Shown here: in pieces, positions 12,555 through 32,066 of the stretch
Numbering within the stretch: the first letter of the stretch is position 1
Layout of the letters: each line of letters starts with the position of its first letter
Source: Niveibacterium sp. SC-1
GTDB taxonomy: Bacteria > Pseudomonadota > Gammaproteobacteria > Burkholderiales > Rhodocyclaceae
DNA length: 64,000 nt
Assembly (NCBI RefSeq): GCF_038235435.1
Contig: NZ_CP151275.1
Location: 2,976,001 to 3,040,000, forward strand
Direction: 5' to 3'
Program-made: the position numbers and the translations under genes
The notes under the pieces: generated by a model
Database searches by the model: none
Told to the model about the DNA's origin: nothing
The model's input: the letters and a program-made list of their open reading frames with translations, nothing else

Positions 12555-13364
12555 ATGCCAGAGCTCGACGAGCGACCCAGCAACGAGATCCGCGTCGAAG
12601 AAACGCGCAACGTGCTGCCGCCGATCAATCGCGTACCGGCCCACAGCGCCATCGTCTGGTTGGCGCGCGGGACCCGCGATATGCGGGCGGCGCCGCTCGC
12701 GAGCCTCTTCTATGGCTTCTGCTTCGGCGCCATGGGCATCACCGTCAGCATGGTGTTCGAGCATGCCTACCAGTACACCTCGGCGCTGACCTCGGGTTTC
12801 CTGTTGCTGGGTCCCTTCCTCGCGATGGGCCTCTATGAGTTGTCGCGCCAGCACGAGCGCGGAGAGCCGATGAGCCTGGGCCGTTCGCTTGTCGTCTGGC
12901 GCCGCAACGCCGCCAACATCGGTATCTTCGCCCTGGTCCTCATCGTCATATTCCTCGTGTGGGCGCGCGCCTCGCTGATCATGTTCGCGCTGTTCTACAC
13001 CAACGAAATGCCCAATCTCTCGGGCTTTCTTTCGCAGGTCATGAGCCTGGAGAACCTGGACTTTCTGGCCGTGTATTCCGCGGTCGGCGCGTTCTTCGCG
13101 GTGCTTGTCTTCGCGCTCAGCGCGGTGTCCATCCCGATGATGCTCGACCGCGGCCAGGACGCGATCACGGCGATGCTCACGAGCTTCGCGGCGGTGACCC
13201 GCAATCTGCTGCCGCTGCTGATATGGGGCATCCTGATCGCCGCGCTTGCCACGCTGGGTTTTCTCACCTTCCACATCGGCCTCGTGTTTTTCATGCCCCT
13301 GATCGGGCATGGAACCTGGCATGCCTATCGCGCGGTCGTTGGACCCACAACGCCGGCCGCATGA
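12555..13364 (+). CDS. DUF2189 family integral membrane protein
   Basis: A 269-residue membrane protein with about six membrane segments and a soluble N-terminal 40 residues. The pattern VPAHSAIVWLARGTRDMRAAPLASLFYG near the start and PLIGHGTWHAYRAVV at the end matches DUF2189, whose members are often near cytochrome oxidase genes. No function is established. The start is taken at ATG 12555 after the purine-rich AAAACGGGGGAGAC. It appears monocistronic. Confidence 0.85.
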   Translation: MPELDERPSNEIRVEETRNVLPPINRVPAHSAIVWLARGTRDMRAAPLASLFYGFCFGAMGITVSMVFEHAYQYTSALTSGFLLLGPFLAMGLYELSRQHERGEPMSLGRSLVVWRRNAANIGIFALVLIVIFLVWARASLIMFALFYTNEMPNLSGFLSQVMSLENLDFLAVYSAVGAFFAVLVFALSAVSIPMMLDRGQDAITAMLTSFAAVTRNLLPLLIWGILIAALATLGFLTFHIGLVFFMPLIGHGTWHAYRAVVGPTTPAA

Positions 13365-20466: not shown

Positions 20467-21060
20467 TCACCGACTCAGCCAACGCTGCAGCTGGTCAACC
20501 GAAAACGCAATCAGCACTGTTCCTGGAAGCATTCCCAGAATGGAGCCGAGAACAAAATCCTTGAAGCGTAGATGTGACGCGCCGGCAATCATGTTGACGA
20601 CGGCGAACGGCGCAATGGGCAACATCCGGATAATGATGACCGCCAGCAAACCACGTTCGGCGAGACGACGACTAACCTGATTGATCCGCTCCCCACCGAA
20701 GTGACGCAGACCCTCGTGCCCCAGGTAGTTGCCAATCGAGTAGCTGCAGATGGCGCCCAGTGTCGTACCCAGCAAGGTATGGATGATTCCCAGCCACGGA
20801 CCGAGCAACAGGGAGCTTGCAACGATGATGGCGCCGAGCGGTACCGACAGCACACTCGCAAGGAATACGCAGGCGAGGACACACCATGCAGAAAGCTCAC
20901 GTACAGAGATGCGCGTCCTTGCGACGAGTTCTTTAAACCCTGCGACGTCGCCAGGGCCGTACGCTTTCCAGAGGACGGCCAGCCCGACCAGGCAAAGCAC
21001 CAGCAACACGAGGAGCGACGCACGAACCGCCAGAGCGCGATTCGATGGCATTGGCGTCAC
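20467..21060 (-). CDS. TVP38/TMEM64 (DedA-like, SNARE-associated) membrane protein
   Basis: A 197-residue inner-membrane protein. TM at about 12-32, then the VTT/SNARE-associated domain with LSVPLGAIIVASSLLLGPWLGIIHTLLGTTLGAICSYSIGNYLG, the charged turn [30 protein letters not shown] and KDFVLGSILGMLPGTVLIAF. The family is linked to membrane lipid handling and scrambling (eukaryotic VMP1/TMEM41B, bacterial DedA). GTG at 21060 overlaps the NRPS stop (GTGA), so it is translationally coupled; ATG at 21051 is the alternative start. It is the last gene of the patatin-NRPS operon, suggesting movement of the lipid product or substrate (inference). Confidence 0.88.
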   Translation of the reverse strand: MTPMPSNRALAVRASLLVLLVLCLVGLAVLWKAYGPGDVAGFKELVARTRISVRELSAWCVLACVFLASVLSVPLGAIIVASSLLLGPWLGIIHTLLGTTLGAICSYSIGNYLGHEGLRHFGGERINQVSRRLAERGLLAVIIIRMLPIAPFAVVNMIAGASHLRFKDFVLGSILGMLPGTVLIAFSVDQLQRWLSR

Positions 21061-24000
21061 AAGACCGCACCGGTCAGACCCGTCGTCGCCTTGTCGAGAC
21101 AGGATCTGAGCGCCCCTGCCAGCTCATTTACGTTGAGCTTTTCGAACATCGATCCATGCAGGCCGCGCACAACCAGTTCAGGTGAGTCCGCAGCGAGGAT
21201 TCGGCGCCAGGCTTTGAACAACAGAGGATCCCAGCGCACGAGCCCGCTGGAGCGGATAAAAACTGTTTTCCCCGCATAGGGTTTGACGTGATAGTCGGCC
21301 ATCGCGTTGATCTGCCCAAGCAAGCCGGGATCACTGAACAAGGCGCCCAGGTGCCGGCCGTTCATGCTGAATTCCTGGGCGTTCAAATGGCAAGCCAGCC
21401 ACTTCATGGAACGCCAGAAGATTGCACTACGCAGCATTCGCCCGGGATAGGCAGCGTCGACGAGGCATAGCTGGGTCACAGGGAATTGCTTTGCCTGAAG
21501 CAAGCGCGCCGTTTCAAGCGCGGCAATGCCACCCACCGAGAAGCCAGCAAGCGCACCAGGCAGGCCGCGGACCATTATCTGTTCAGCGTAACAACGAGCA
21601 ATTTCCTGGAAACTGCTCGCCACCTTGGTCTCCGTCCCGGTCACTGGCGGCTGCAGCATGTAAAAGTCGCAGGCATCGCCCAAAGCTTCCGCCAGCGCCT
21701 TGAAACGAATGAGATCGCCCTGCCCCGAAGCCGCGAAATACAATGGCATGCCGCGCTCCTTCCGGCTGAGGTGCAGCATGACGCCCTCAACAGGCGTCTT
21801 GTTGGCCCCTCCATCGAACCGCACCGCCAGCTGCTCGATTGTCGGGTACTCGATCAACGTGAAAAGCGGCACAGCGTGGCCGAGCAAGGTTTCCATGCCC
21901 GCGAGGATGTCGACTGCAGCCAGCGAATCTCCGCCAACGTCGAAGAAATTGTCCGTCACATGCAGGTCGTTCCGCTTCAGGACTGACTGCCACAATGCCA
22001 GCGAAGCGTGCTCCAGCACACTCACTGGCTGCCGAGATGCGGTTGGCATTGACTGCAAACCAGGATCCGGCAGCAGATCGTAGGCAATCTTGCCGCTGCT
22101 GTTCAAGGGCAATTCAGGCAGGCAGGATATGCCCGCCGGCAGCATGTAATCAGGCAGGCGGCTCGCCAGATAGCGGCGAATGTGGCCCGCCTGAAGCGGC
22201 TGAGACCCGGCCACCCAGGCGTAGATTTTTCCGTTGCCGTGACAATCTAACAACTTCACGGCGACCTGCTTCACAGCATCGAACGACAACAGCGCGGCCT
22301 CTATCTCACCCAACTCTATGCGGTAACCCCGCAGCTTGATCTGGCGATCGGTTCTCCCGACAAAATGCAGATTGCCATCGGTCGCCAGCCAGCCCCGGTC
22401 ACCGCTGCGATACATGCGCTCGCCGGGCAGGAACGGATCGTCAAGGAAAGCCTCACTGTCGAGGGCTCTTTGCTTGAGATAACCGCGAGCGATTGCCGGG
22501 CCAGCGATATAAACCTCTCCCACTGCTCCGAACGGCAGCATCTGGTGGCGACCATCGAGGATATAGATGCGCGTGTCATCTATGGCCCGCCCTACCGGCA
22601 GGACCATACTGGCCGGCTGCGTGCTGCACTCCCAGGCCGTTGCAAAGATGGCCGTCTCGGTGGGTCCGTAAACGTTGAACAGCCGACCTCCGATCTCGGC
22701 AATGAAGCGGTTGGCCAATTCGGCGGGCAGGACTTCGCCGCCGCAGCAGGCAATCCGCAGTTTGAGCGTGGAGTGCTCCACCGACGTGCCAGGAATGGAA
22801 TCGAGCAGGCCGCGCAAAGTCGACGGCACCAGGGCCAAGATCGTCACCTGATGGCGGACGACGAAATCGCCGAGCGTGCCCGGTGATAGCCGTCCGGGCC
22901 GCGGCAATGCGACGCTGGCGCCATTGATCAAGGGCACCAGCAACTCGATCAATGAGGGATCAAAAGTCGCCTGCGTGCATTGCCCGGTGCGATCCGAAGG
23001 TTCCACCTTGTAAGTCCGGGAAATCCAGGTGAGACGACGGGCCAGCGCAGCGTGCTCGAGCATGACCCCCTTGGGCCGTCCGGTCGATCCCGAGGTAAAC
23101 AACACGTACGCCAGATCGCCATGTTGCGGCTGTCTGGTTTGCGCCACCGAGTCTCCGGTCAGCGGGGTCGCATCGACAACCTGCAGCTTCGCGTGCATGT
23201 CCGCAAAGCGCTCGAACTGCGGCGCTTGCAGCAATAGCGCGATAGCCTCGCTGTCATCGAGGATGAGCTGCAAGCGCGCCAGCGGCATGTCTGGATCGAG
23301 CGGCAGGAATGCGGCCCCGGCTTTGCTGATCGCCAGCATGGCTGCAACCATTTCCGGCGAACGTTCGATGACGGTCGCCACCACCCGATCCGGCCCAGCC
23401 CCAAGAGTCAACAGGCGCTGCGCCAGCTGGTCCGCCCAGCGATTCAGGCTGCCATAGTCCAGCTCACCCTCTTCCCAGACCAGAGCCACAGCATCCGGTG
23501 CAAGTGCAGCCTGGCGTTCGAACTGCAAGATATAGGGATCAGCCGATGGCTCAGGCCGGACATCCGGCAACAGAGTCCGCAGCTCCGTTGAAGGGACCAA
23601 CGGAAGTGTTTCGACCTTCCGCTCGGGTTCATCTGCCATCAGCCGCATCAGAAAAGCGAGGCGTTGGCCAAGATAAGCGACTTCATCCGCTGAAAAACAG
23701 GAGGGGCTCGCTTCGAGCGCCAGCTCGGCATCCTGGTTCGCCTGAAATTCACACAAGGTGATGCCAAGTGGATAACGGGCCAGCCCGGAAAAAATCTGCC
23801 GTGCTCCGCAGCAACGCCCGGCACCGAAATTCAGGTCATAATCCTGCCGTTCGTAAGAAAAAATCACATCGAAAATACTGTCGCGATGCTGGCGAATGGC
23901 CATCAGATGCCGCGCCAATTCGCTGACCGGATATCTGTGGTGGCGAACTGCAGTCTTCAGCGAAACATTTACCGATTCGATCAATTCGCGCACGGTCATG

Positions 24001-24923
24001 CCTGGCCTCAGCCTGACCACCAGCGGAAATACGCTGACGAACATGCCGGGTGTCTCACGATATCGCTTGCCCGCACGATTCAGGCTCGGCAAACCGATCA
24101 CGATCTCGTCCCGGTCGTAGATCCGCGCGAGATAGGTAGCAATGACGGCGACCATGAAACCAAAGAGAGTCGTCCCCAGCGCGCTTGCAACGTATCCCAG
24201 GCGGTCGCACTCTGCGCGAGACAGGGTCTGTGTCACGACATGGGCCGGCTGCAGACCTTCGCTAACGACATGCGGATATCGCCGTTCGAAAAGAGGTGCT
24301 GGCAAAACCGGCATTTCATGCTGCCAGAACGTGGCATCCCGCTCGCAGGCCGGTGAGCCCCGGTACTCCAGTGACTCCATGACAAACGCCCGGTAGCCCG
24401 AATCACTTGTCGCAGGCGACGGCTTGCCGGCAGCCAGCGCGTTGTAGATGCTCGCCCAGCGCTGCATCACCAGCGAGGTACCCCAACCATCCATGATCAA
24501 ATGGTGAAACTGGATGGTCAGGCCGTGCAGGGTGTCGCTATGGCGTAGCAACGCGAAACGCCAGGGCGGCGTGCCATCGAACGCGAACGGCTCCTTCATC
24601 CAGGCCTGCCACCAAGCCCGCATCGCGGCCAGAGGCTCGTCAGTCGCCGGAATATTGACCAGTTTCAGCGGCGCGTCATAAGTCGCGAGAAGCCGCTGCC
24701 CGCCCTCAGGCAGTGGGACCAGGCGCAGCGCCTCGGTTTCGGCCACCATGCAGGCCAATGCCTGCTGAAGGAGCGCAAGATCGAAAGGGCCGTCGAAATA
24801 CCCGGCACCACCGATGTTGAGATGCGTACTGCCCGGCCAGGCCCGCTGGTCAAGCCAGACCTCTTGCTGACTTAATGACAAAGGGATGATCTCGACAGCT
24901 AGCGTATCGCCGCACGATCCCAT
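21057..24923 (-). CDS. Single-module non-ribosomal peptide synthetase, C-A-PCP-TE
   Basis: A 1288-residue protein. Condensation domain about 10-440 with intact HHxxxDG at 140-146 (H141, D145). Adenylation domain about 460-950: A3 LFTSGSTGRPKG (608-619), A4 TFDPS with Asp655 that anchors an alpha-amino group, A5 NVYGPTE (750-756), A7 YRSGDR, A8 GRTDRQIKLRGYRIELGEIE, catalytic Lys945. Carrier domain with phosphopantetheine Ser1000 (FFDVGGDS). Thioesterase about 1055-1280 with triad Ser1129 (GFSVG), Asp1156, His1256. A leading C domain with no upstream module suggests acyl transfer onto the amino acid, i.e. a lipo-amino acid product. ATG 24923 follows GGAGGAG and overlaps the patatin gene by 25 bases. 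Substrate unresolved; no PPTase or MbtH here. Confidence 0.93.
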   Translation of the reverse strand: MGSCGDTLAVEIIPLSLSQQEVWLDQRAWPGSTHLNIGGAGYFDGPFDLALLQQALACMVAETEALRLVPLPEGGQRLLATYDAPLKLVNIPATDEPLAAMRAWWQAWMKEPFAFDGTPPWRFALLRHSDTLHGLTIQFHHLIMDGWGTSLVMQRWASIYNALAAGKPSPATSDSGYRAFVMESLEYRGSPACERDATFWQHEMPVLPAPLFERRYPHVVSEGLQPAHVVTQTLSRAECDRLGYVASALGTTLFGFMVAVIATYLARIYDRDEIVIGLPSLNRAGKRYRETPGMFVSVFPLVVRLRPGMTVRELIESVNVSLKTAVRHHRYPVSELARHLMAIRQHRDSIFDVIFSYERQDYDLNFGAGRCCGARQIFSGLARYPLGITLCEFQANQDAELALEASPSCFSADEVAYLGQRLAFLMRLMADEPERKVETLPLVPSTELRTLLPDVRPEPSADPYILQFERQAALAPDAVALVWEEGELDYGSLNRWADQLAQRLLTLGAGPDRVVATVIERSPEMVAAMLAISKAGAAFLPLDPDMPLARLQLILDDSEAIALLLQAPQFERFADMHAKLQVVDATPLTGDSVAQTRQPQHGDLAYVLFTSGSTGRPKGVMLEHAALARRLTWISRTYKVEPSDRTGQCTQATFDPSLIELLVPLINGASVALPRPGRLSPGTLGDFVVRHQVTILALVPSTLRGLLDSIPGTSVEHSTLKLRIACCGGEVLPAELANRFIAEIGGRLFNVYGPTETAIFATAWECSTQPASMVLPVGRAIDDTRIYILDGRHQMLPFGAVGEVYIAGPAIARGYLKQRALDSEAFLDDPFLPGERMYRSGDRGWLATDGNLHFVGRTDRQIKLRGYRIELGEIEAALLSFDAVKQVAVKLLDCHGNGKIYAWVAGSQPLQAGHIRRYLASRLPDYMLPAGISCLPELPLNSSGKIAYDLLPDPGLQSMPTASRQPVSVLEHASLALWQSVLKRNDLHVTDNFFDVGGDSLAAVDILAGMETLLGHAVPLFTLIEYPTIEQLAVRFDGGANKTPVEGVMLHLSRKERGMPLYFAASGQGDLIRFKALAEALGDACDFYMLQPPVTGTETKVASSFQEIARCYAEQIMVRGLPGALAGFSVGGIAALETARLLQAKQFPVTQLCLVDAAYPGRMLRSAIFWRSMKWLACHLNAQEFSMNGRHLGALFSDPGLLGQINAMADYHVKPYAGKTVFIRSSGLVRWDPLLFKAWRRILAADSPELVVRGLHGSMFEKLNVNELAGALRSCLDKATTGLTGAVL

Positions 24924-26680
24924 CTGGAAATCTCCTCCATGGCGTAGCGATAACCCGCATCGGCAATTTTGTCGGCTTGTCGATAGGCCATCAGCGGATA
25001 TCCAGCGACTGGCGGCTCAAGGCAAAAGTCTGCCTGAGCCATGGTTCGCGCCCGCTGGTGGATGCCACCGATATGACCCGCCCGATAGAGGATCGAGCCA
25101 ATCGAAGGTGTCCTGTCGCCGGTCTCCCGCAAGTAGCCCTTGAGGGTCCGCAAAACAGAAAGACGCTGCAGAGCGGGATCGACGCTCAGGATTTCGCGCA
25201 CGTCGACATCCACGGCAATGATGCTGCCATTGCCGCGGCGGCGTTCGAGCGGCGTTCCGAGCCGGCCGCGCATGGAACTGACCGGGACGTTGTCGAGAAT
25301 CGCGCCATCGACCAGCAGCTCACCGTCGTACAACACCGGAGGCAACAAACCCGCTGGCGAATTGCTGGCCAGCACCGCACGCCAGAGCAGGCCGCTGTCC
25401 TGCACCGTCGTACAGGCCCGACTGAGGTTACAGGCCGCAGTAAAGAACGGACGCCACAATTGCTCGATGCGTATATCGCCGAACATGCGCCGCAGATCAC
25501 GCTCCATACGCTTGCCGGAGAGCAGCGAAATCAACGGTAGCGTCGGTCGTTCGCCGCCCAAAGCAAACCGCTGAGTCCTATCGCGAATTTCATCGATCGG
25601 CAGTCCGCAGGCGTATTGCGCACCGATCAGCGCGCCCATGCTGTTACCGCCGAGCACGTCGATGGGAATACCGCTTTCTTCGAGCGCCCGCAAAACGCCG
25701 AGATGCGAAAAGCCTCGCGCCCCACCACCGCCTAGGACGACACCCACCGCCCGACTCGTCAGATAGCGCGCCAGTCGCGCGTAGTCGCCCTGATGCTCGG
25801 CCCGCAATGGATAGACCCGTTCAAAGTCGCGCGCGGCCCAAGCGAGCACGTCGCCCGGCCGCTCGGCCTGGGCCCTGTGAAGCAGCGCCAGATGCTTGCG
25901 CTTCATGACGAAACCGGGCTCTGTCGTTAGCGTATTCTCCACCGCCGACACATCGCTCGATTCGTCCTCGGCCGCAACGAAGACAACCTGATCAGCCTGC
26001 CGAAATGCCATGTGCATTCTTCTCGAATCACTGGCATCGGTTTCCAGCACGATGAAATCGAACTGCTGCTCCAGTTCGTCCAGTTGCACGGTATCGAGCG
26101 TCTCGTCGCGAAATCGTCCGGTTCGCCCCATATTCGCCAAAGCCTTGGCCAGGCCTTCACAAACGTCTGCCGCCAGGCGGGCATCGCGCAGCGGTATGAC
26201 AACAATGGTGTGGGCTCTCTTTTGCTCGGCCAGTTGCACGGAATAGCGCAACTGTCGGTAGACCGCCTGGGCGAACATCCTGTTCAAAGGCACGGGATGA
26301 CGCTTGAGAAGCGCTTCGAAACTTTCGCGGCCGAGCAACGCAATAGTCGAATCCCGCAACGCCGTGACATCGGCAAAGCGTGTCTGCTGCAGGATCATGC
26401 TGGTTTCGCCAACCGCCTCGCCCGGACATATTTCATTGTAGAGGCTTAGCTTACCGTCCGGATCGCGCCGCGATACCCTCAGGCGACCACTAACGACGAT
26501 CAGCATGCTTTCCGAGGGGTCACCCTCACGCAGAACGAGGTGCCCGCCCTTGACCGTCTGTAATTCCAGTTCGCCGGCGACATCTCGCAACACCTGTTCA
26601 TCCAGGCGGCCAAAGAGCCGGCTGGCAAGCAGCACTCCGACCAGCTTATCCAAGGAAAGCGGCGCCGTCAGTCTACTCAC
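24899..26680 (-). CDS. cNMP-binding patatin-like phospholipase (NTE family)
   Basis: A 593-residue protein. The cyclic-nucleotide-binding-like domain (about 15-140) has EGDPSESMLIVVSGRLRVSRRD and PGEAVGETSMI. A linker (about 155-300) resembles the Rossmann-like segment of NTE proteins. The patatin domain (about 310-500) has the oxyanion loop GGGGARGFSHLGVL, nucleophile Ser347 in GNSMG and Asp458 in LVDGAILDNVP, the complete Ser-Asp dyad. It is expected to hydrolyse (lyso)phospholipids at the membrane under a ligand-sensing domain. First clear gene of the operon with the NRPS and the TVP38 protein, so it may release acyl chains or act on the product (inference). Confidence 0.93.
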   Translation of the reverse strand: MSRLTAPLSLDKLVGVLLASRLFGRLDEQVLRDVAGELELQTVKGGHLVLREGDPSESMLIVVSGRLRVSRRDPDGKLSLYNEICPGEAVGETSMILQQTRFADVTALRDSTIALLGRESFEALLKRHPVPLNRMFAQAVYRQLRYSVQLAEQKRAHTIVVIPLRDARLAADVCEGLAKALANMGRTGRFRDETLDTVQLDELEQQFDFIVLETDASDSRRMHMAFRQADQVVFVAAEDESSDVSAVENTLTTEPGFVMKRKHLALLHRAQAERPGDVLAWAARDFERVYPLRAEHQGDYARLARYLTSRAVGVVLGGGGARGFSHLGVLRALEESGIPIDVLGGNSMGALIGAQYACGLPIDEIRDRTQRFALGGERPTLPLISLLSGKRMERDLRRMFGDIRIEQLWRPFFTAACNLSRACTTVQDSGLLWRAVLASNSPAGLLPPVLYDGELLVDGAILDNVPVSSMRGRLGTPLERRRGNGSIIAVDVDVREILSVDPALQRLSVLRTLKGYLRETGDRTPSIGSILYRAGHIGGIHQRARTMAQADFCLEPPVAGYPLMAYRQADKIADAGYRYAMEEISRWDRAAIR

Positions 26681-30209: not shown

Positions 30210-30338
30210 ACCCGATCCTGGACCCGCCGGGCGCGGCACGAGGGCAACGCGGCGCGTTCTTGAAATCAGGTTACAGCGCGCGGGTTAAGTGGCCGCCGGA
30301 CTATATTGAGTCTGGATCATCGTTCTGGGCGGCCCTCG

Positions 30339-32066
30339 ATGACGGCGGAGCAAGGCGATCCAGCCAAGAAGAATGAGAACGGACCCCGCCGCCGATCGCT
30401 GCGGGAACTGGCCTTCCGCTGGCCGCGCACGACGGCCGCGATCTGCTTCGCGACACTCGCGCTCATCTTCGTTGTCCTGACCGCCCGCGAGGCCTTCCAG
30501 CTTCACGATCTGGCGGTGGACCGGCGACACCGTGAGCTTGAATACCGGGCGCTGGTCATCCAGGACAACCTGACGGCCGGCCTGCGGACGCTCTCGTTCA
30601 TGCGGGCTACCGCCGAGCACTTCCTGGAACGGCGCCCCTCGGATGCGGAATTTGCCGCCCAGCCCGCCCTGCAGGACGCCTCGCGGCTGCGCGAACAACG
30701 GACCTGGTCGATCGAGGTCGAGCGGAACAGCCCGCCGATACAGGGCGTGCAGTCCGAAGTACTCGCCGGCCTACCCGGATTCCAGCGCAGGGAGGACAGT
30801 TTTCCTGCCGACCTGCTGCTCGGTGCGCTGATGAGCCGCGCGCTCGGGCAGAGCGTGGCGGAGCATCCCTTTGCCGCGCGCATGGTCTTCGTTTCCAGCA
30901 ACGGCTTCTTCGTCTCCTACCCGATGGTGCCGGACGAGCGGATCGAAGAACTCCTGAAGATCGCCGCCTTCCGCCCCTACTTCCAGGGCGCGCTCCGGCG
31001 GGTCGCGGGGGCAAACCCCTATGTGCTCCCGAGCAGCCCCATGCGCGAAGCGCAAGTCGGACGACAGGTCCTGGCCTTCTCCACGCCGGTGCGCGTGCAT
31101 GGCACCTTCCGCGGCGCCATGGTCCTGATCGCCCACAAGGTCTATCTGGATCGCCTGCTGCAGTCCGCCTCGGTGTCCAGCCGCGGCGCCCTGCTGCTGA
31201 ACAAGCGCGGCGAAGTGATCGCAGCGCGCGACAGCGACTCGCCCGTAGATGCAGGCACCTTTTCGATCCTCTACCCGATCGCCCGCTCCGGCCCCTCGCA
31301 ACCCCAGTACGGGGCGCTCACCTGGCCGGACCACGGCAAGATCCTCTACCGCTGGGTCAACGAGGACTGGCTGCTCGCACAACCCGTCTCCTACTGGGAG
31401 CTCTACGGTCCGACCCTGCTGCGCCTCACGCCGCTGGCCATCACCCTTCTGGTGGTCGGCGCCGTCCTGTTCCTCACCACCTTCCGCCTAGCCATGCTGC
31501 TCATGCGCCACCAGATCGAGGCGCAGGCCCAATCGCGCGAGCTCGCGTTCAGGGATCCGCTGACCGGGCTGGGCAATCGCCGCTTCCTGCATGAGCACTT
31601 CAGCCAGCTCGCCGAGGATTGCCAGCGCAGGAATCTCCCGCTAGCGCTCGCGGTATTCGACGTCGACCACTTCAAGCGCATCAACGACGCCTGGGGCCAC
31701 GCCAGCGGCGACGCCGTGCTCAAGACGCTGGCGAACACCGCGCTGCGTGTGGTGCGTACCTCCGACGCTGTGGTGCGCCTCGGTGGTGAGGAGTTCGCCC
31801 TGCTCCTGCCCGGCGCGACCGCCGAACAGGCCCTGGCAAGTGCCGAGCGCCTGCGGATCGCGCTCGCGGCGGCACGGTGTGCACCCGTTGGCAAGGACGG
31901 TTCGCGATTGACCCAGGCCGAACCCCTCCGCTTCACCGCCTCCTTCGGCGTCGCCGAGGCACAGGCGGACCGGAGCTTCGACCTGGACGCGCTCATGGCG
32001 ATCGCCGATGAACGCCTCTACCGCGCCAAGCAGCGCGGACGTAACTGCGTGGTGGATCACACCTGA
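30339..32066 (+). CDS. Membrane-anchored diguanylate cyclase (GGDEF)
   Basis: A 575-residue protein from ATG 30339 (TTG 30306 is a longer alternative). TM1 about 30-50, periplasmic CHASE/Cache-like sensor about 55-345, TM2 about 355-378, GGDEF domain from about 400 to the end. Active site GGEEF at 482-486; an inhibitory I-site R-T-S-D at 473-476 lies exactly five residues before it, so product feedback inhibition is expected. It makes c-di-GMP and, with the YcgR-like receptor at the start of the window, supports a c-di-GMP motility pathway in the organism. Signal unknown. Confidence 0.94.
   Translation: MTAEQGDPAKKNENGPRRRSLRELAFRWPRTTAAICFATLALIFVVLTAREAFQLHDLAVDRRHRELEYRALVIQDNLTAGLRTLSFMRATAEHFLERRPSDAEFAAQPALQDASRLREQRTWSIEVERNSPPIQGVQSEVLAGLPGFQRREDSFPADLLLGALMSRALGQSVAEHPFAARMVFVSSNGFFVSYPMVPDERIEELLKIAAFRPYFQGALRRVAGANPYVLPSSPMREAQVGRQVLAFSTPVRVHGTFRGAMVLIAHKVYLDRLLQSASVSSRGALLLNKRGEVIAARDSDSPVDAGTFSILYPIARSGPSQPQYGALTWPDHGKILYRWVNEDWLLAQPVSYWELYGPTLLRLTPLAITLLVVGAVLFLTTFRLAMLLMRHQIEAQAQSRELAFRDPLTGLGNRRFLHEHFSQLAEDCQRRNLPLALAVFDVDHFKRINDAWGHASGDAVLKTLANTALRVVRTSDAVVRLGGEEFALLLPGATAEQALASAERLRIALAAARCAPVGKDGSRLTQAEPLRFTASFGVAEAQADRSFDLDALMAIADERLYRAKQRGRNCVVDHT

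Follow-up and report, generated by a model that had tools for sequence, protein, structure and literature searches.

What does a non-ribosomal peptide synthetase (NRPS) of one module make when its gene overlaps those of a patatin-type acylhydrolase and a membrane protein of the DedA/TVP38 type? This question is raised by three minus-strand genes, referred to below as the trio, in the 64,000-nucleotide stretch of Niveibacterium sp. SC-1 DNA analyzed here (the window). An earlier note on this DNA had described them as overlapping and the NRPS as a complete C-A-PCP-TE module with intact catalytic residues. The open-reading frames, strand, and sizes were confirmed, as were the overlaps of 25 bases between the patatin and NRPS genes and 4 bases between the NRPS and VTT genes, and the features of the locus are as follows.

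24899..26680, minus strand: gene 1, PAT, cyclic-nucleotide-domain patatin (NTE/lysophospholipase-type acylhydrolase), 593 aa, GTG start; Pfam PF00027, PF24179, PF01734
26297..26560, minus strand: cNMP-binding domain of PAT, residues 41-128; Pfam; motif GETSMILQQTRFAD
25274..25741, minus strand: patatin catalytic domain of PAT, residues 314-469; Pfam; GGGARG, GGNSMG, DGA
21057..24923, minus strand: gene 2, one-module NRPS, C-A-PCP-TE, 1288 aa, ATG start; Pfam
23571..24890, minus strand: NRPS condensation (C) domain, predicted starter type, residues 12-451; solved relatives RzmA-Cs, ObiF1, CDA-C1; tree support 100/99
22074..23522, minus strand: NRPS adenylation (A) domain, residues 468-950, code DPIAACVIFK; Pfam, GrsA-numbered code
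21825..21998, minus strand: NRPS peptidyl carrier (PCP) domain, residues 976-1033; Pfam; Ser1000
21099..21791, minus strand: NRPS thioesterase (TE) domain, residues 1045-1275
20467..21060, minus strand: gene 3, VTT (DedA/TVP38/TMEM41B-type) membrane protein, 197 aa, GTG start; PF09335, 94.5 bits
27026..27601, plus strand: short, probably truncated transposase upstream of the trio, not a cassette member; 191-aa ORF, PF05598 (DUF772) its sole match, 75.3 bits
30306-32066: CHASE7/dCache sensor with GGDEF domain, ~3.6 kb upstream of the cassette

The three gene products

Pfam assigned to PAT the order cNMP_binding, NTE_Ploop, Patatin, to the NRPS the order Condensation, AMP-binding, AMP-binding_C, PP-binding, Thioesterase, and to the third protein a VTT_dom (94.5 bits against a cut-off of 33.9). 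The catalytic motifs of the NRPS are intact (HHLIMDG in C, GGDSL in PCP, and GFSVG plus Asp and His in TE), bearing out the complete module of the earlier note, and so are those of the patatin (GGGARG/GNSMG/DGA). PAT has the composition of an NTE-type cyclic-nucleotide patatin, namely a cNMP domain, an NTE P-loop-like domain, and a patatin domain with a Ser-Asp dyad. None of the 25 aligned copies lacks the patatin motifs, and each of the 24 that extend across the phosphate-binding cassette of the cNMP domain retains its Arg. This domain set is common to NTE-type patatins and RssA, whose model PAT matched at 91.5 bits, under the cut-off of 272, and PAT differs from RssA in its adjoining NRPS. 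The protein search with PAT returned at least 593 clusters at E ≤ 1e-100, 120 of them listed. Identification as a CBASS/Pycsar-type defense effector was rejected, the best PADLOC match, which covers the cNMP and P-loop part (residues 7-216), scoring 41.6 bits, and the conserved trio holds no cyclase partner.

At E ≤ 1e-110, the patatin was detected in 4 of 399 genomes of the order sample, three with the trio plus one further genome, G346, indicating that the link between patatin and NRPS is not absolute and that the patatin can work outside the pathway. The solo copy (L060, G346:C193, 2555-4375, minus strand) is 59% identical to the cassette patatin and sits between two genes that read, by eye, as hybrid histidine kinases; its 5.25-kb contig gave no NRPS or VTT match.

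The RxxPxxP...N...G motif is present in the aligned copies of the third protein, which belongs to PF09335, of which we take "SNARE-associated" to be an older name. It has the VTT domain (94.5 bits) in common with the lipid transporters UptA, PetA, and TMEM41B. Identity with the undecaprenyl phosphate transporter UptA itself was rejected, with 19.5 bits against an NCBIfam equivalog cut-off of 250. PMC12893004 describes relatives of VTT that flip C55-P and one that transports phosphatidylethanolamine.

Conservation and spread of the trio

Outside the window, 29 loci were assembled: 22 with the NRPS from a contig scan, four from the same genus, and three from family members. The scanned loci, with NRPS identities of 49-54% (best segment), belong to Comamonadaceae, Oxalobacteraceae, Chitinimonas, and unclassified betaproteobacteria, and genome searches recovered the trio also in the same-genus genomes G001, G002, G003, and G006 and in the family members G858, G895, and G901. 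L010/G056 and L016/G147 are apparently the same contigs and were counted once. In all 27 loci whose contig extends far enough, the NRPS gene is immediately preceded by PAT on the same strand (L011 and L012, which start within the NRPS, were left out, and L008 has a partial patatin only), while VTT was the next gene downstream in 27 of the 28 with a continuing contig, L004 ending within the NRPS. The sole exception is L015 from Noviherbaspirillum denitrificans, where the NRPS runs into an assembly gap.

In that locus, the NRPS frame stops near position 12850, where its A domain is followed by unread bases, and the remainder of the locus gave no TE or VTT match; PMC10681181 places the T domain of this species in a separate gene.

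Other genera keep the gene order and strand of the trio at NRPS identities of about 46-60%. In 23 of the 24 other loci holding both genes, the predicted NRPS frame begins 4-31 bases before the patatin gene ends, the exception being L004, where a 71-base gap separates them. A start codon for VTT was present no more than 40 bases from the end of the NRPS gene in 22 of the 24 (all but L014 and L022). These starts are predictions picked by script, the NRPS start being the one nearest to the expected residue 1, and L096-L098 were left out of the count. Pairwise protein distances agreed over 22 loci, with Spearman coefficients of 0.84 for PAT-NRPS, 0.89 for NRPS-VTT, and 0.78 for PAT-VTT, values reached by 0 of 999 permutations; L004, L008, L011, L012, and L015 were dropped from this comparison as incomplete. 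Of the three proteins, VTT has diverged furthest, its copies being 32-46% identical to that of the window.

A comparison of the flanks of 27 loci by ORF similarity found no fourth gene conserved with the trio, the commonest further neighbor family occurring in 10 of the 27 (window locus included) and most flanking families being confined to groups of relatives. Since the flanks vary beyond groups of relatives, the three genes constitute the unit that is conserved across genera, and, by the same ORF similarity, this unit has no constant acyl ligase, ACP, or exporter. Because ORFs were picked automatically for this clustering, a number of patatin and VTT frames were joined together or lost, and their families (2 and 1) appear in 18 and 21 loci; the figures for presence of the trio given above rest on direct locus-by-locus counts over the 29 loci. 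The CHASE7/dCache-GGDEF sensor (30306-32066) had no match near the trio in L044-L047 or L096-L098. Judged by conserved order, overlaps, and co-inheritance, the trio is a real unit with one shared history, and the earlier note's proposal of a single unit withstood the neighborhood search in other genomes.

This unit is patchily distributed. With the window's genome counted each time, carriers number 8 among the 297 family genomes and 3 among the 399 genomes of the order sample, and the class sample of 369 genomes has a single carrier, the window's own. Four of six other same-genus genomes carry it, with neighbors that differ from those in the window. The ribonucleotide reductase adjoining the window's trio is 85-87% identical in all six, and no trio gene was found around it in the fetched stretches (a 9.7-kb contig in the case of G004). 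Between the window NRPS and the four same-genus copies, identity is 49%; the latter are nearer two Chitinimonas copies (57-60%), and in the tree, two of the same-genus copies and one Chitinimonas copy grouped at 100/99 with the window copy outside. The DUF772 transposase remnant, ~350 bases upstream of the patatin gene, is in line with horizontal arrival. The G+C content of 20-28 kb is 0.595-0.621, compared to 0.642-0.682 in the preceding 6 kb and following 12 kb; other parts of the window are equally G+C-poor (0.585 at 42-44 kb), so the dip adds little to the case for a foreign origin. On these comparisons, horizontal transfer of the cassette is the likeliest reading, and the cassette is probably mobile.

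The NRPS module and its predicted starter domain

The protein search with the NRPS returned at least 457 clusters at E ≤ 1e-200, query included, of which 120 were listed. The 119 relatives among these are 1262-1319 aa long, each with C, A, PCP, and TE domains, and carry names including Rhodocyclaceae, Dechloromonas, Azonexus, Rhodocyclus, Rhodoferax (among them Rhodoferax koreense), Variovorax, and Pseudorhodoferax. The closest among the matches listed, from a Rhodocyclaceae MAG, is 86% identical. A single Condensation match was found in the whole 5.17-Mb single-contig genome that contains the window (G000), which means that the absence of an upstream module, claimed in the earlier note, holds genome-wide. 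One full-length C domain each, besides partial weak matches, was found in G001, G002, G003, G006, and G147.

Among PDB sequences, the C domain matched RzmA-Cs (E = 1.1e-39; structure identified via the PDB codes in PMC7804268), ObiF1 (5.3e-30), and CDA-C1 (3.4e-27), with other chains scoring lower. Reference C domains for a tree were taken from NRPS regions of relatives and labeled by place alone, as lying in the first 200 residues of their frame or internally, and the final tree held 57 rows, including 13 of the 25 available trio C domains. A starter clade of 21 rows with support of 100/99 comprised the 13 trio domains, three starter-type PDB domains, and five N-terminal domains, while the remaining 36 rows were all 25 internal C domains and 11 N-terminal ones. 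The tree was built twice, with and without four long branches, and this support was the same in both. Outside the trio family, the nearest rows came from G043, where two long NRPS frames each contribute their first C domain (98/95). An elongating (LCL, DCL, or dual) identity was rejected, the trio C domains grouping with 0 of the 25 internal domains. This placement argues that the NRPS C domain belongs among starter domains, apart from the internal domains tested, as the earlier note had suggested.

RzmA-Cs and CDA-C1, together with ObiF1 the closest solved relatives, lie in the same clade, and the HHxxxDG motif is intact in the trio C domain. Both initiate multi-module lipopeptide lines, whereas the entire line of the trio NRPS is one module closed by a TE. 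In its architecture it resembles the pyreudione synthetase, reportedly a monomodular NRPS in which one module joins a fatty acyl group to a single amino acid, and for which we know of no patatin or VTT partner.

The starter domain of RzmA joins an acyl-CoA to the first amino acid, with residue 148 setting the chain length (PMC7804268); by analogy, acyl transfer would be the function of the trio C domain as well. At the acyl-length gate, RzmA has R148 and HolA A149, smaller residues there accompanying longer acyl chains (PMC7804268). Among the 120 listed members of the trio family (query included), this position is occupied by Thr 111 times, by Ala five times, and by Ser four times; by the same analogy, Thr, itself absent from the RzmA/HolA series, may hint at medium acyl chains.

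The A-domain code, DPIAACVIFK, is identical in 108 of the 120 listed family members, query included, and its residues D235, P236, V322, I330, F331, and K517 are found in all 120. We take these positions to follow GrsA numbering, with the register set on motifs. In the 27-row locus alignment, L044 and L047 carry Ser at 278, and L015 is unreadable at 517. A code so nearly fixed indicates one conserved substrate. An uncharged pocket, in which positions 278, 299, and 301 are taken by small residues, could by our guess leave room for a bulky hydrophobic side chain. No mention of this code, in three spellings, was found in the literature searched. The PCP Ser1000 is likewise present in 120 of 120 listed members. 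The TE has an intact triad and the ordinary fold of NRPS/PKS thioesterases, near hydrolyzing or cyclizing TEs and near esterases too; in the locus alignment, L008 has Glu at the Asp position.

With regard to PCP activation, the sole PF01648 match in G000 is a 131-aa AcpS-type PPTase (L049, 1492-1887), and 4PPT_N (PF17837) had no match in that genome. Among other trio genomes, one PF01648 match was found in each of G002, G147, and G056 and two in each of G001, G003, and G006, while G004 and G005 have two each, yet no C domain. G056 combines 12 C-domain matches with a single PF01648 match, a pattern indicating that the PF01648 count neither proves nor excludes an Sfp-type PPTase; the search may miss Sfp types.

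Earlier description and possible function of the cassette

The earlier note knew of no described cluster with this trio, a claim that does not stand: PMC10681181 (2023) shows an NRPS with an adjacent patatin-domain gene and a "SNARE-associated" gene, the genes found in the window. This paper draws them in Rhodoferax bin 43, Rhodocyclaceae bin 137, P. ginsengisoli, N. denitrificans, and R. koreense, with NRPSs that share 51-58% identity with the bin 43 enzyme, and two of these species are among our loci (N. denitrificans, L015; P. ginsengisoli, L020). In the sections consulted, the paper labels C, A, and T domains only and calls the C domain syringomycin-like; it does not type that domain as a starter, read out a specificity code, name a product, or describe a mutant. 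To that extent, the starter typing, near-invariant A code, wider conservation, and mobility are new here.

Given these results, we favor, with moderate confidence, a horizontally mobile cassette of three translationally coupled genes whose product is a single N-acylated amino acid, or else a lipid derived from that compound. The A domain would load one uncharged, probably bulky hydrophobic amino acid onto the PCP, the C domain would join it there to a medium-chain fatty acyl group from CoA or ACP, and the TE would release the acyl-amino acid by hydrolysis, cyclization, or transfer. Under the control of a cyclic nucleotide, the patatin might free a membrane fatty acid or lysolipid to feed or balance this synthesis, and the VTT protein might move the lipid product, or a lysolipid, between membrane leaflets; such roles of PAT and VTT in lipid hydrolysis and lipid transport are plausible. 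The proposed product is supported by the lone starter-clade C domain, the near-fixed A code, the intact TE, and the conserved, coupled trio, and the mobility from the patchy spread, the differing sites in same-genus genomes, and the transposase remnant. Speaking against this cassette are the AcpS-type enzyme as the only PPTase found in G000, where the PF01648/PF17837 search is not proof, the lack of a fourth conserved gene, the solo patatin of G346, and the divergence of VTT.

A less likely alternative is a secreted antifungal or anti-predator molecule, either an acyl-amino acid or a TE-closed tetramic acid resembling the pyreudiones, which reportedly come from a "minimalistic" NRPS, with the patatin and VTT protein serving self-protection or membrane repair. 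Three strains of trio-bearing species inhibited Botrytis cinerea by 43-47%, compared to 11.6% for a strain without any C domain; Colletotrichum plurivorum, however, was inhibited by no strain of the three and Verticillium dahliae by only one (PMC10681181). The same paper regards the NRPS as an unclear cause of the antifungal activity and notes that one strain has other clusters, while it reports no other antimicrobial gene cluster for R. koreense; no exporter was conserved with the trio by ORF similarity in 27 loci.

We consider doubtful a second alternative, in which the TE hands the N-acyl-aminoacyl group to a lysophospholipid made by the patatin rather than to water and the VTT protein spreads the aminoacylated phospholipid over the leaflets. 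That the NRPS has a lipid hydrolase of the patatin type and a VTT protein as its only fixed partners is consistent with such a product, as are the movement of phospholipids or C55-P by VTT/DedA relatives (PMC12893004, PMC8072408) and the lack of a conserved fourth gene, hence of an exporter (27 loci, ORF similarity). The TE fold, near ordinary hydrolyzing or cyclizing TEs and esterases, does not point to lipid transfer, however, and no precedent was found in the literature searched. That the cassette defines a new class of bacterial membrane lipid, made by a cyclic-nucleotide-controlled patatin, TE transfer, and VTT, with an NRPS serving membrane remodeling and not secondary metabolism, is in our view unlikely.

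It is very unlikely that the patatin and VTT protein are co-transcribed general lipid housekeeping outside the NRPS pathway. The 59%-identical solo patatin between putative hybrid histidine kinases in G346 would fit such a role, but flanking neighbors change between groups while patatin and VTT stay, and the overlapping frames and shared history of the three proteins argue against it. Finally, an ordinary elongating C domain with its upstream module elsewhere in the genome is refuted for the genomes tested, by the single Condensation match in G000, the one full-length C domain (partial weak matches aside) in G001, G002, G003, G006, and G147, and the absence of all 25 internal C domains from the trio's clade.

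The favored N-acyl-amino-acid cassette would thus lend itself well to study, being compact and pairing a minimal acyl-NRPS, whose pocket is near-invariant, with a lipid hydrolase and a VTT protein at almost all of the 29 loci. If its product proves to be a membrane lipid, the trio would link NRPS chemistry to membrane remodeling.
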